Assembly (NCBI RefSeq): GCF_000744605.1
Contig: NZ_JQMG01000001.1
Location: forward strand, 1,612,001 to 1,676,000
DNA: 64,000 nt
Reading direction: 5' to 3'
Origin: Methylotenera sp. L2L1
GTDB taxonomy: Bacteria > Pseudomonadota > Gammaproteobacteria > Burkholderiales > Methylophilaceae
Shown here: piece after piece, positions 21,420 through 25,408 of the stretch
How the letters are laid out: each line of letters starts with the position of its first letter
How positions within the stretch are numbered: position 1 is the stretch's first letter
Program-made: the position numbers and the translations under genes
Notes under the pieces: model-generated
The model's database searches: none
What the model was told of the DNA's origin: nothing
What the model saw: the letters and a program-made list of their open reading frames with translations, nothing else

Positions 21420-21436
21420 CGCACCTTATTTGTGCG
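21420..21436 (+). promoter_or_regulatory. NtrC-like enhancer site upstream of nasT
   Basis: CGCACCTTATTTGTGCG contains GCAC-N7-GTGC and agrees at 10 of the 13 fixed positions of the NtrC consensus TGCACC-N4-TGGTGCA. Its centre is about 120 bp upstream of the start expected from the sigma-54 promoter at 21521-21536, a normal enhancer distance. Binding is inferred from sequence only. Confidence 0.6.
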
Positions 21437-21520: not shown

Positions 21521-21536
21521 TTGGCACATCTATTGC
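21521..21536 (+). promoter_or_regulatory. Sigma-54 promoter of nasT
   Basis: TTGGCACATCTATTGC keeps the invariant GG and GC with ten bases between them and nearly the full TTGGCAC/TTGC core. It lies 33 bp before the nasT ATG, leaving room for a start near 21548. Sigma-54 control fits nitrogen-limitation induction through NtrC. Confidence 0.82.
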
Positions 21537-21569
21537 TTATACTAGTTCAGTCTATCGAGTTAAGCTGCT

Positions 21570-22145
21570 ATGTTAAAAGTAATGATTGTTGATAATAATT
21601 TGGAGCGTGTTAAACCACTCAAGCAGTCCTTGCTTGATAACGGTTACGACGTCATCGCCCATTTAAGAGATACCATCAATTTAAATGATGCATGCAGTAA
21701 GTTGCAACCAGACGTAGTGGTGATCGATACAGATTCACCTAGTCGCGACACATTGGAGCATATCTGTGTCATGACGATGAATGATCCGCGTCCAGTGATG
21801 ATGTTTACCCATGATGGCGATAAAGAGCAGATTAAATTAGCAACGCAGGCCGGTGTGTGTGCTTATGTGGTGGGAACTTTACCTAATGAGCGCCTGCAAC
21901 CAGTGATTGATGCTGCGGTTGCCAGATTTGAAGAATTTAAGAATTTACGTGTTGCCTTGCAAGAGGCAAATACCAAGCTAAGCGAGCGCAAAGTAATTGA
22001 ACGTGCAAAAGGTTTGATTATGAAACAGCGCAATGTGGATGAAAATGAAGCCTATAGCATGTTAAGAAAGATGGCGATGGAAAAACATACGCGCATCGGT
22101 GCTTTGGCAGAACAAATTGTTGAAGCAGCACAGTTGCTACTTTAG
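21570..22145 (+). CDS. nasT: ANTAR-domain transcription antiterminator NasT
   Basis: 191 residues. The N-terminal receiver-like domain (1-120) starts MLKVMIVDNNLERV, and the phosphoacceptor region reads VVVIDTDSPS, an atypical pattern. A coiled linker (about 118-135) leads to the ANTAR RNA-binding domain (135-190: ERKVIERAKGLIMKQRNVDENEAYSMLRKMAMEK). NasT proteins bind twin-hairpin leaders and let polymerase pass a terminator when nitrate or nitrite is present. Exactly such a leader lies between nasT and nrtA. The usual partner NasS, a cytoplasmic NrtA-like nitrate sensor, is not encoded here. Confidence 0.93.
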   Translation: MLKVMIVDNNLERVKPLKQSLLDNGYDVIAHLRDTINLNDACSKLQPDVVVIDTDSPSRDTLEHICVMTMNDPRPVMMFTHDGDKEQIKLATQAGVCAYVVGTLPNERLQPVIDAAVARFEEFKNLRVALQEANTKLSERKVIERAKGLIMKQRNVDENEAYSMLRKMAMEKHTRIGALAEQIVEAAQLLL

Positions 22146-22185
22146 CTGATAAGTTAATACCAATTCGGTGGTGGTAGAGTCCAAA

Positions 22186-22248
22186 AGTCCAATGACGGAC
22201 TGGTGAGCTAAATCATCCAAGCAGTAAAAAAAGAGCCAATGGTGGCTC
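22186..22248 (+). promoter_or_regulatory. ANTAR-binding twin-hairpin RNA leader of nrtA
   Basis: Two perfect 5-bp hairpins with six-base loops: AGTCC-AATGAC-GGACT (22186-22201) and GAGCC-AATGGT-GGCTC (22233-22248). Each loop has A at position 1 and G at position 4, the defining ANTAR recognition features. A strong intrinsic terminator follows 21 bp later. The structure is read directly; the mechanism, NasT dimer binding to permit readthrough into nrtABD, follows from the characterised NasR, NasT and EutV systems. Confidence 0.88.
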
Positions 22249-22269
22249 AGATCAAGTAATACAAGACAA

Positions 22270-22336
22270 AGGCGTCTTGATAAGCAATCAACTCTTTAAT
22301 TTAAGAGCTGGTTCAACTTATCAGACGCCTTTTTTT
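22270..22336 (+). terminator. Intrinsic terminator in the nrtA leader (NasT target)
   Basis: A long hairpin formed by AGGCGTCTTGATAAG and CTTATCAGACGCCT with a single bulged A and an inner CTCTT/AAGAG stem, followed by a run of eight T. It lies 44 bp before the nrtA start codon, so default termination would stop transcription before the transport genes. Confidence 0.88.
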
Positions 22337-22380
22337 ATGGATTTTTTTTAGATTGTTTGGATTATTTTAGGAGAGCTAAG

Positions 22381-23685
22381 ATGGGCAATGACAATATTAG
22401 TAATAAACAAATTAAAGTAGGTCAGCAATCAGATTTGGTGATTGACCCTGCGCGCCGTGACTTTTTTAAAATGAGTGCGATGGGGGCTTTAGGAGCAGCA
22501 GCGATGATGGGTTTAGTGCCGAACGGTATCCGTACACAAGCTTACGCAGCAGGTTCAGATGCACCAGAAATCAAAGAAGTGAAAATTGGTTTTATTCCAT
22601 TAACAGATTGCGCGCCGATTATCGTGGCTGCGGAAATGGGTTTTGATAAGAAATACGGTATCAAAATCACGCCTTCAAAAGAAGCATCTTGGGCTGCAGT
22701 GCGTGACAAGGTTTCTAACGGTGAGTTGCATGCAGCACATATTCTGTACGGTATGGTATATGGCGTGCAACTAGGCATCGGTGGTCAGCAAAAAGACATG
22801 GCTGTGTTAATGGGTTTAAACCATAACGGTCAAGGTATTACGCTTTCTAACCAACTTAAAGATAAAGGTGTTAAAGACGGTAAAACACTAAAACGTTTAA
22901 TTGATAACGAAAACCGTGACTATACCTTTGCACAAACATTCCCAACCGGTACGCACGCAATGTGGCTTAACTATTGGCTTGCTGCAAACGGCATTAATCC
23001 AGTCAAAGATGTCAAAAATATTGTAGTACCTCCACCGCAAATGGTCGCCAATATGCGTATTGGTAACATGGATGGATACTGTGTTGGTGAGCCTTGGAAC
23101 GCTAGGGCGATTTTCGACAAAGTAGGTTTCACTGTCGCTACAACGCAAGATATCTGGGCAGACCATCCTGAAAAAGTATTGGGTGCAACTGCTGAGTTCG
23201 TAGATAAAAACCCAAATACAGCACGTGCCATGATGATGGCGATTCTTGATGCATGTCGTTACATTGATGCAGCTGAAAATCGTGCGAAAGTGGCTAAGCT
23301 GATTTCAGGTAAAGCTTACGTGAATGCGCCAGAACAAGTAATTGCAGGACGCTTTGTGGGTGATTACGACAATGGTAATGGCAAGGTGTGGAAAGACCCT
23401 AATTACATGAAGTTCTTTGATGATGGCAAAGTGAACTATCCGTTCTTATCAGATGGCATGTGGTTCTTAACACAGCATAAACGTTGGGGCTTACTCAAAT
23501 CTGACCCTGACTACTTAGGTGTGGCAACTAAGATCAACCAAGTAAAACTTTATTCTGAAGCCGCATCGCAATTAGGTGTCGCTGTGCCAAAAAGCACAAT
23601 GCGTAGCAGTAAATTGATGGATGGCACTGTGTGGGATGGCTCAAATCCAGCCGCTTATGCTGCATCGTTCAAAATTAAAGTGTAA
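22381..23685 (+). CDS. nrtA: Nitrate ABC transporter substrate-binding protein NrtA (Tat-exported)
   Basis: Periplasmic nitrate/nitrite-binding protein. The ATG at 22381 with AGGAGA upstream is preferred over an in-frame TTG at 22357, giving 434 residues. The leader carries a twin-arginine motif (ARRDFFKMSAMGALGAAAMMG), with cleavage expected near YAAGSDA. The binding fold starts VKIGFIPLTDCAPIIVAAEMG, as in NrtA/CynA-type proteins. First gene after the ANTAR terminator; nrtB and nrtD follow closely. Because it is exported, it cannot serve as the cytoplasmic NasS sensor. Confidence 0.93.
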   Translation: MGNDNISNKQIKVGQQSDLVIDPARRDFFKMSAMGALGAAAMMGLVPNGIRTQAYAAGSDAPEIKEVKIGFIPLTDCAPIIVAAEMGFDKKYGIKITPSKEASWAAVRDKVSNGELHAAHILYGMVYGVQLGIGGQQKDMAVLMGLNHNGQGITLSNQLKDKGVKDGKTLKRLIDNENRDYTFAQTFPTGTHAMWLNYWLAANGINPVKDVKNIVVPPPQMVANMRIGNMDGYCVGEPWNARAIFDKVGFTVATTQDIWADHPEKVLGATAEFVDKNPNTARAMMMAILDACRYIDAAENRAKVAKLISGKAYVNAPEQVIAGRFVGDYDNGNGKVWKDPNYMKFFDDGKVNYPFLSDGMWFLTQHKRWGLLKSDPDYLGVATKINQVKLYSEAASQLGVAVPKSTMRSSKLMDGTVWDGSNPAAYAASFKIKV

Positions 23686-23730: not shown

Positions 23731-24576
23731 ATGACAACAAATACTGTAAATAAAATAATGCCTACCGCTAAATATTTCTCTTTAAGCAGTTCACGTAATT
23801 TAAATACGCAGGCTTATCGTTTTTTTAGATGGGTGCTACCGCCAATTTTTGGGTTGTTCTTGCTAGTGATGATTTGGTCATTGATTGCAGAGCATAGACA
23901 AGAGTTGCCAGGACCAATTAAAACTTGGGCCTCAGCGGTTGAATTGTTTAGTGATCCGTTTTATGACCATGGCATCAATGACAAAGGGGTGGGTTGGAAT
24001 ATCCTGGCATCATTGGAGCGCGTTGGTTTGGGTTTTGGTTTAGCTGCGCTGATTGGAATCCCGCTTGGTTTTGTCATTGGTCGTTTTGAGTTTGTGGCAA
24101 GAATGACTGCACCAGTGATTAGCTTGTTGCGGCCAGTCTCGCCACTTGCATGGTTGCCAATTGGGTTGCTGGTGTTTAAAGCAGCAAATCCTGCAGCGAT
24201 TTGGGTAATCTTTATTTCGGCAGTATGGCCTATGATTATCAACACGGCAGTCGGCGTGAGTAAAGTGCCACAAGACTATATGAACGTGGCAAAAGTGTTG
24301 AACTTAAGTGAATGGAAGATCGTTACCAAAATACTGTTTCCGTTTGTGCTGCCTTACATGATGACCGGTGTGCGCCTTTCTATCGGTGTTGCATGGTTGG
24401 TGATTGTGGCGGCTGAAATGCTAACAGGTGGCGTTGGTATCGGTTTCTGGGTGTGGGATGAGTGGAATAACTTGAATGTTGAGCACATCATCATCGCAAT
24501 TTTCGTCGTAGGGATTGTTGGTTTGTTGCTTGAGTTAATCCTCACGCAAATCGCTAAACGATTTAGCTACGAATAA
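23731..24576 (+). CDS. nrtB: Nitrate ABC transporter permease NrtB
   Basis: Inner-membrane permease of the NrtABCD system, 281 residues. About six transmembrane segments are visible, the first at FGLFLLVMIWSLIA. The cytoplasmic EAA-like loop reads MNVAKVLNLSEWKIVTKILFPFVLPYMMTG and would contact the ATPase. AGGAG precedes the start. It lies 45 bp after nrtA and 28 bp before nrtD. Confidence 0.94.
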   Translation: MTTNTVNKIMPTAKYFSLSSSRNLNTQAYRFFRWVLPPIFGLFLLVMIWSLIAEHRQELPGPIKTWASAVELFSDPFYDHGINDKGVGWNILASLERVGLGFGLAALIGIPLGFVIGRFEFVARMTAPVISLLRPVSPLAWLPIGLLVFKAANPAAIWVIFISAVWPMIINTAVGVSKVPQDYMNVAKVLNLSEWKIVTKILFPFVLPYMMTGVRLSIGVAWLVIVAAEMLTGGVGIGFWVWDEWNNLNVEHIIIAIFVVGIVGLLLELILTQIAKRFSYE

Positions 24577-24604: not shown

Positions 24605-25408
24605 ATGGAAAAAGCAAACGCTGACAAATATGTACAACTAGAGCAAGTGGATATGACCTTTCATACCAAAAAAGGGACATTCAATGCGCTTAAGGGTATT
24701 AATCTAAATATTAGAGAAGGCGAGTTCATTTCAATTATTGGGCACTCTGGTTGCGGTAAGTCTACAGTGCTGAATTTAATCGCAGGCTTGTTGCAGCCTT
24801 CAGAGGGCTTGTTGTTCTGCGCAGGCCGTGAAATTGCGGGGCCAGGTCCTGAACGTGCAGTCGTGTTTCAAAACCACTCTTTATTGCCATGGCTAACTTG
24901 TTATGAAAACGTGTATCTCGCAGTAGAGCGCGTATTTAGCACCGAGACCAAAGCCCAACTTGAGGCGCGCACGCATGCCGCTATCGAGTTGGTAGGGCTG
25001 TCACACTCTAGCGACAAACGACCTAATGAAATTTCAGGTGGTATGAAGCAGCGTGTTGGCATTGCCCGCGCTTTGGCCATGGAGCCAAAAGTACTGTTGC
25101 TGGATGAGCCTTTTGGCGCGCTAGATGCATTGACTCGTGCCAATCTGCAAGATGAGCTGATGAAGATTATGGCGAAGTCTGGTTGTACTGCGGTAATGGT
25201 GACACATGATGTGGATGAGGCTGTATTGCTATCAGACCGTGTCGTGATGATGACCAATGGCCCAAGTGCAACGATTGGTGAAATTTTAGAAGTTAACTTA
25301 CCACGTCCAAGAGCACGTTTGGCACTGGCAGAAGATAAAGAATACAACCATTTACGTAGTGAAGTGCTGCGCTTTTTATATGAGCGACATGCTAAAAAAT
25401 CGGCATAA
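24605..25408 (+). CDS. nrtD: Nitrate ABC transporter ATP-binding protein NrtD (NrtC/D type)
   Basis: 267-residue ATPase. Walker A GHSGCGKST (about 48-56), signature SGGMKQRVGIARA, Walker B VLLLDEPFGALD and the switch histidine in VMVTHDVDEA are intact. It lacks the NrtA-like C-terminal domain of cyanobacterial NrtC, so one ATPase presumably works as a homodimer. The porin gene starts 55 bp after the stop, so it belongs to the same transcript. Confidence 0.94.
   Translation: MEKANADKYVQLEQVDMTFHTKKGTFNALKGINLNIREGEFISIIGHSGCGKSTVLNLIAGLLQPSEGLLFCAGREIAGPGPERAVVFQNHSLLPWLTCYENVYLAVERVFSTETKAQLEARTHAAIELVGLSHSSDKRPNEISGGMKQRVGIARALAMEPKVLLLDEPFGALDALTRANLQDELMKIMAKSGCTAVMVTHDVDEAVLLSDRVVMMTNGPSATIGEILEVNLPRPRARLALAEDKEYNHLRSEVLRFLYERHAKKSA

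Follow-up and report, generated by a model that had tools for sequence, protein, structure and literature searches.

The locus raises the question of how the nitrate-uptake genes of Methylotenera sp. L2L1 (Methylophilaceae) are switched on in this methanol-consuming bacterium, and what the short stretch between nasT and nrtA contributes. The window, defined here as the whole 64,000-nucleotide stretch of DNA that was analysed, belongs to a genome of 2.64 Mb that is a single contig and is rated 100% complete. Its gene order is mutS, nasT, the leader, nrtA, nrtB, nrtC, a porin-like gene, nirB, and an MFS transporter gene of the NarK type, the NCBIfam NarK match of which is below its cut-off. We read the leader as a transcription attenuator under the control of NasT, placed between nasT and nrtABC, with a probability of roughly 0.88, and it probably decides whether the nitrate-uptake genes are read. 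It is a known kind of RNA switch, with three candidate docking hairpins compared to the textbook two. The features of the locus are listed in Table 1.

Table 1. Features of the nasT-nrtA locus, in window positions.
Feature	Position	Strand	Description and evidence
NtrC-type site	21421..21435	.	GCAC-N7-GTGC, GCACCTTATTTGTGC; 8/8 fixed bases; 101 nt from the sigma-54 motif
Predicted sigma-54 -24/-12 promoter	21522..21537	+	TGGCACATCTATTGCT; strict motif, 59/62 loci
nasT	21570..22145	+	Receiver-like + ANTAR protein, 191 aa; PF03861 66 bits, PF00072 33.6 bits
H1	22186..22201	+	AGTCC-AATGAC-GGACT, extra A1/G4 hexaloop hairpin; hairpin search, fold, alignment
H2	22233..22248	+	GAGCC-AATGGT-GGCTC, classical upstream hairpin (P1); hairpin search, fold, alignment
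H3	22262..22279	+	CAAGAC-AAAGGC-GTCTTG, predicted antiterminator hairpin (P2), 6 bp, loop AAAGGC; shares 22268-22279 with the terminator
Intrinsic terminator	22268..22336	+	AAAGGCGTCTTG...TCAGACGCCTTT + T-run; stem 22268-22332, T-run 22330-22336; strong terminator before nrtA
nrtA	22381..23685	+	Tat-type nitrate-binding protein; PF13379 365.9 bits; 2g29 NrtA E 4.3e-89; RRDFFK motif
nrtB	23731..24576	+	Permease; TIGR01183 above cut-off
nrtC	24605..25408	+	ATPase; TIGR01184 above cut-off

The original prediction described a complete ANTAR leader of two perfect hairpins with A at position 1 and G at position 4 of a hexaloop (A1/G4), followed by a strong intrinsic terminator and nrtA. Both hairpins are exact and the terminator was confirmed. 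The leader was not complete with two hairpins; a third A1/G4 hairpin (H3) had been overlooked. The 21-bp gap claimed between H2 and the terminator is filled by H3, which runs into the terminator, and the terminator 5' arm begins with the loop and 3' arm of H3. If five or more Watson-Crick pairs are required, the 64-kb window has 10 A1/G4 hexaloop hairpins on the plus strand and 3 on the minus strand, and three of the ten (H1, H2, and H3) sit within 94 bases of leader. H2 carries a caveat, as A1 and T6 of its loop can pair and the minimum-energy fold shows it as 6 bp with a tetraloop. The region 22176-22350 has a fold energy of -58.0 kcal/mol with the terminator and -45.3 kcal/mol with H3 forced. 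RNA cut at 22282 folds H1, H2, and H3 all together. Termination by default with a transient H3 would be the expected behaviour.

Leaders of this kind are described for EutV of E. faecalis. As far as the accessible text of PMC3369931 and PMC8934654 goes, the eut leaders share with this one A1/G4 hexaloops, the downstream of which overlaps an intrinsic terminator, and EutV, like NasT, has receiver-like and ANTAR domains. The A1/G4 hexaloops and the overlap of H3 with the terminator support the ANTAR-type reading. A geometry different from overlapping designs had also been suggested. This fails, as H3 overlaps the terminator 5' arm like P2 in the Ramesh 2012 model, where the dual hairpin is defined (accessible parts of PMC3369931). 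The L2L1 system differs from EutV in its three A1/G4 hairpins, in its nitrate genes, and in a NasT that lacks the receiver lysine. EutV (6wsh) is the best solved match of NasT, with E 5.4e-36 for alignment A3 of NasT as the query, and AmiR (1qo0) is also among the structure matches of the NasT profile. Ordinary phosphorylation of NasT is unlikely, because the alignment with EutV has no lysine at EutV's lysine position.

On the EutV model, H3 would be the antitermination hairpin, and H2 and H1 would be candidate recruitment sites. H2 and H3 would then make up the ordinary dual-hexaloop motif, with H1 as an added docking site. The available portion of PMC8934654 (Walshe 2022) states that the EutV dimer binds a single hexaloop at a time, proposes that a recruitment hairpin hands EutV over to the antitermination hairpin, and mentions an additional single hexaloop in EutX RNA. 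The H2-H3 linker of 13 nt compares with natural eut linkers of 5-12 nt and with an eutP linker of 14 nt (or 3 nt) that greatly reduced induction, according to the part of PMC3369931 available. H1 may be too distant to matter, since the H1-H2 linker is 31 nt.

The proposed sequence of events is as follows. Transcription would begin upstream of nasT, driven by NtrC and sigma-54. In the default state, H1, H2, and then the terminator would fold in the RNA downstream of nasT, and RNA polymerase would stop before nrtA. Active NasT would bind the A1/G4 loops of H2 and/or H1 while these hairpins emerge from the polymerase, pass from them to H3, and keep H3 closed. The terminator could not form while H3 is held, because the H3 loop and 3' arm are shared with the terminator 5' arm, and nrtA would be transcribed. 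We infer NasT binding, antitermination, the role of H1, and nitrate as the signal.

Two nitrate systems are comparable. The NasS-NasT system of Paracoccus has NasT and a hairpin leader ahead of nitrate assimilation genes (PMC3795266, PMC5424462, accessible parts). It differs in that no NasS was found in L2L1, where the leader lies between nasT and nrtA. For the Paracoccus leader, the accessible text of PMC5424462 gives two hairpins, HI and HII, compared to three here, and PMC3795266, in the part available, words the nas leader as a "series of hairpins". Bradyrhizobium NasT targets are covered in PMC6759348, also available in part. The NasR-nasF leader of Klebsiella is likewise a case of ANTAR antitermination in nitrate assimilation (PMC3369931, PMC5424462, accessible parts), and NIT-ANTAR proteins occur in sister genomes. 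Unlike NasR, the regulator of L2L1 is not NIT-ANTAR, and the NasR-type leaders of the family mostly have no near A1/G4 hairpin. The ANTAR leaders of the accessible literature are described as dual hexaloops, whereas this family has two conserved candidate recruitment hairpins. We found nothing in the open PMC literature about NasT leaders of the Methylophilaceae or about a nas leader with three A1/G4 hairpins; single leaders may have been noticed earlier, for instance in subscription papers or in the Ramesh 2012 hit tables.

Conservation was followed in 187 genomes of the family, where the NasT query matches 125 at E <= 0.001, 64 of them below 1e-60. NasT of L2L1 shares 98% identity with its counterpart in a Methylotenera sp. 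MAG (L098), and it is the only ANTAR match in the complete L2L1 genome. Loci L001 and L002 were dropped as repeats of the L2L1 locus. The 68 loci L003-L070 gave 63 leaders, and 51 after removal of 12 near-copies. The loci without a leader are L024 and L068, which are cut by contig ends, and L058, L069, and L070, where none was seen; L071 and L072 have no NasT match by tblastn. Loss of pairing or of A1/G4 in close relatives had been named as evidence against the leader. Both are kept in the five nearest relatives (L004-L008), and this check therefore came out in its favour.

The 51 leaders contain 84 A1/G4 hexaloop hairpins upstream of H3, whereas 200 dinucleotide shuffles gave 6.0 on average (sd 2.5, maximum 15); this conservation rules out a chance origin. 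No such excess is seen for hexaloops whose positions 1 and 4 hold other letters (60 observed, 71 in shuffles). The number of leaders with two upstream hairpins varies by rule. By the enrichment count, 32 of the 51 have at least two (0.36 in shuffles). The energy rule gives two in 38, one in 10, and none in 3, and two in 0.0% of shuffled leaders. By the anchor rule, H1+H2+H3 are present in 40, H1+H3 in 5, H2+H3 in 3, and H3 only in 3, so that H2+H3 are present in 43. Anchors are the best A1/G4 hairpins, and A1/G4 at anchors is therefore 100% by construction. Those of seven loci were placed by hand: L045, L046, and L061 were moved, and for L063-L066 the hit of the H2 search was used as H1 and H2 was left empty. 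H1 and/or H2 are without A1/G4 in 11 leaders, and both are in 3.

H3 is the most conserved hairpin. Its core GAC-AAAGGC-GTC has pairs 1-4 and both A1 and G4 in 51/51 leaders, which were recognised by H3, so none is scored without it. Its overlap with the terminator passes a strict rule in 45 leaders and fails it in six (L022, L023, L031, L032, L034, and L049). The loop-to-loop gap between H2 and H3 is 11-28 nt in 37 of 43 leaders and 40-45 nt in the other six. Covariation counts, which are inflated by the relatedness of the sequences, were obtained for H2+H3 and for H1. For H2+H3 (37 rows), 92.1% of cells are paired compared to 82.1% in shuffles, the score is 0.344 (0.188 shuffled), and both values were reached by 0/500 shuffles. 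For H1 (45 rows), 84.9% are paired compared to 70.1%, the score is 0.539 (0.258 shuffled), and both were again reached by 0/500; H1 pairing is partly by construction, because the alignment rows were picked as best A1/G4 hairpins. Pairs of H1 changed on both sides (reached by 288/500 shuffles) and its pair types (149/500) were not above shuffles.

The leaders can also be compared by the type of regulator. The NasR-type set consists of 20 sister genomes (L178-L197) without a close NasT. An ANTAR-end match lies in a 425-466 aa frame in 19 of the 20 and in a 170-aa frame in G080; in G063, G068, and G080, most of NasT is also matched, at 26-27%. NIT and ANTAR domains were confirmed in both proteins scanned (G053 and G050). 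H3, the sigma-54 motif, and the Tat-type NrtA are kept in all 20. Within 47 nt of H3, 45 of 51 NasT-type and 4 of 20 NasR-type leaders have an A1/G4 hairpin (Fisher p 7e-8, uncorrected for relatedness), so the H2 loop tracks NasT. This tracking of the regulator by the near hairpin is a natural experiment for the EutV recruitment and handover model. Worth adding is that nasT has stop codons in L058 (G079) and L069 (G042), and that in L070 (G044) it is split into two pieces, one of which has stop codons; no leader follows in any of the three. About 2 kb from the nasT remnant of G079 there is a 448-aa frame with an ANTAR-end match, as if an exchange of regulators were under way.

H1 might have no function of its own, the leader being a plain H2-H3 switch and H1 an old duplicate or an RNA stability element; we consider this possible and clearly the less probable reading. 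The dual motif suffices in known systems (PMC3369931, in the part available). The leader was also recognised in 37 of the best 80 of 586 named loci (38 sites), and 19 of these sites have one A1/G4 hairpin ahead of H3. Against it, 16 of the same 38 sites (two of them Methylotenera) have two upstream hairpins, compared to 0.7% in shuffles; the remaining 3 have none. Among the NasT-type leaders, 39 of 51 retain a far A1/G4 hairpin, as do 15 of 20 NasR-type ones; such a hairpin recurs in a second leader that may be switched in trans, and in five leaders H1 is the sole A1/G4 hairpin besides H3. The reading of H1 as an added docking site is preferred. Three-hairpin leaders are found among the named loci in Pseudomonas, Paramagnetospirillum, a Hydrogenophilales MAG, Herminiimonas, and Aquabacterium, and the design is thus wider than the Methylophilaceae, though not universal.

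The upstream part of the switch was searched with what we take to be the consensus sequences of an NtrC-type site (GCAC-N7-GTGC) and of a sigma-54 -24/-12 promoter. TGGCAY-N5-TTGCW, a pattern that also admits near forms, is present ahead of nasT in 59 of 62 loci; it is absent in L062 and L067, L026 has a weak form, and L016 is too short. GCAC-N7-GTGC with 8/8 fixed bases is upstream in 53 of 60 loci, compared to 0.10 expected, and lies 101-115 nt ahead of the sigma-54 motif in most of the 48 loci listed. With both motifs present, the predicted NtrC/sigma-54 promoter agrees with the initiation that had been proposed. The position of nasT just upstream of the leader was borne out, and a single transcript probably runs through both, given the conserved sigma-54 promoter ahead of nasT.

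The description of the unit as self-contained is doubtful, because NasT is known to need NasS, a cytoplasmic NrtA-like nitrate sensor (accessible parts of PMC3795266), which was not found in the genome, and because another part of the genome holds a second predicted target. One PF13379 (NMT1_2) protein is encoded in the complete genome, and as this is the Tat-type NrtA, no NasS was found. In the AmiC-AmiR system, which is a model for NasS-NasT, a binding-protein-like sensor holds the ANTAR antiterminator; in contrast, no dedicated sensor gene was found in L2L1. NMT1_2 matches above 200 bits number exactly one in 57 of the 64 nasT genomes, many of which are drafts, and two in 4 (G115, G133, G032, and G165); 3 have none or fragments (G125, G072, and G040). 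Of 62 NrtA N-termini inspected by eye, 57 have an RRxF-type Tat motif, 4 are signal-less (L060, L062, L066, and L067), and 1 is masked; the extra copies in G032 and G165 are also Tat-type. These four signal-less loci form a second nasT locus type, with an NrtA-like (NasS-like) protein after the leader and a middle hairpin without an A1/G4 hexaloop, and in three of them only H3 has A1/G4. Absence of a second NrtA-like protein is not general, because 5 of 11 named beta-proteobacterial genomes searched whole have a second match and 6 have a single one above 200 bits.

The missing NasS raises a testable question, namely how NasT learns about nitrate. NasT might not report nitrate at all. Without NasS it would be active whenever made, and the leader would be a delay or threshold that opens as NasT accumulates under NtrC, since nasT precedes its own terminator. 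The lack of a detected NasS and the position of nasT upstream of the leader and behind a sigma-54 motif in 59/62 loci are consistent with this. A nitrate-binding protein gene right after the leader in most loci argues against it, as do the NasR-type sister genomes (two checked), in which the leader at this position is served by an ANTAR protein with a NIT (nitrate/nitrite sensing) domain. We regard a simple delay as unlikely, though not remote, and retain the attenuator that responds to nitrate through NasT.

NrtA is the obvious candidate for the nitrate sensor in this genome. Extra constraint on NrtA in NasT genomes was found in 1 column, compared to 1 in the reverse control (36 NasT-linked and 20 NasR-linked proteins), and gives no support for a sensor role. 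The Tat motif is no argument for such a role either, because all 20 NasR-type genomes keep it. An internal nrtA start that would give a cytoplasmic isoform was rejected; AGGAG-N8-ATG is present in the signal region of the window's nrtA but is not generally conserved. The ANTAR protein of L2L1 has a receiver-like domain and no NIT fusion. The one NIT match of the genome is elsewhere (C1:2432073-2432813), in a 1029-aa frame, and is another possible nitrate sensor.

Export of the NrtA-like protein varies outside the family. Among the best 80 of 586 named loci, beta-proteobacteria mostly have a Tat-NrtA directly after nasT, many marine gamma-proteobacteria have a signal-less protein at that place, and Pseudomonas has a signal-less protein upstream of nasT. 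A quick tree was built from 100 proteins, after one of 101 rows had been discarded because of its length and the export labels of 21 loci had been hand-set, 12 of them changed. In this tree, 12 Pseudomonas and 4 signal-less Methylophilaceae proteins group with the beta-proteobacterial Tat-NrtA with support 100. This clade has 63 rows, 46 Tat and 17 labelled cytoplasmic, and is apart from other signal-less and other exported proteins. Two separate signal-peptide losses in this clade, suggested by the quick tree, are not claimed, as a careful tree does not reject a single signal-less clade (p-AU 0.456). The NasS-position proteins of Pseudomonas L143-L177 share the post-Tat stretch WxxGSDAPEK with the beta-proteobacterial Tat-NrtA. 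A joint reading would have beta-proteobacterial NasT work without a dedicated NasS, NrtA act as the nitrate sensor in the cytoplasm before export, and two docking sites relay NasT to one antiterminator; the Pseudomonas NasS would be a signal-less relative of this NrtA, and the same NasT would switch a dCache-CheW gene in trans. Taken as a whole, this combination is rather improbable.

Two further explanations concern the hairpins themselves. H1 and H2 could be the working pair, preventing termination at a distance by an unusual geometry. Both have A1/G4 in 40 of 51 leaders and neither overlaps the terminator, but the most conserved hairpin is H3, which does overlap it, and among these leaders, all recognised by H3, five keep H1+H3 and three keep H2+H3 with the partner lost, making this pairing very improbable. 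Chance hairpins beside an ordinary terminator, with no regulation, would agree with the Rfam scan of the window (no family at gathering score; the 9 weak matches near the leader all score much lower than their gathering thresholds), but are contradicted by the fourteen-fold enrichment of A1/G4 loops only and by the covariation in H1 and in H2+H3, and can be dismissed.

Additional leaders were identified with R1, a covariance model of H2+H3 built from 37 leaders, the matches to which are by construction. Of the 187 family genomes, 69 have R1 matches at E <= 0.01. In L2L1, R1 scores 61.7 bits in the window and 50.4 bits at C1:2086928-2086978, and no other site exceeds noise. The other 12 of 14 matches, at 18.3 bits or below, were taken as noise, and a match within a coding gene (G167:C47) was taken as chance. 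The second leader (L084:3980-4135), absent from the R1 training set, has three A1/G4 hairpins and a terminator by eye. It precedes an 854-aa dCache_1 and CheW protein (ORF L084:4235-6799; C1 ~2086880-2089700), and no sigma-54 motif was seen there by eye. This suggests nitrate or nitrogen control of a sensory gene. The paper listings of the open PMC literature showed nothing on NasT/ANTAR control of chemotaxis genes.

Extra leaders in relatives (L085-L091; G111, G109, G157, G043, and G032) lie ahead of a homologue of the dCache-CheW protein, of two PAS-GGDEF-EAL genes, of two PilJ-Hpt-ATPase genes (the latter with a sigma-54 motif by eye), of a formate/nitrite transporter gene, and of a second Tat-NrtA. 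NasT may therefore act in trans on sensory genes. Beyond the family, the exact H3-terminator pattern is present in 10 of 369 genomes of the class, at 11 sites, with one, two, or no upstream A1/G4 hairpins. In L087 and L088, a hairpin with CCC/GGG-type arms and an apparent seven-base loop starting AATG was seen by eye about 60 nt ahead of H2.
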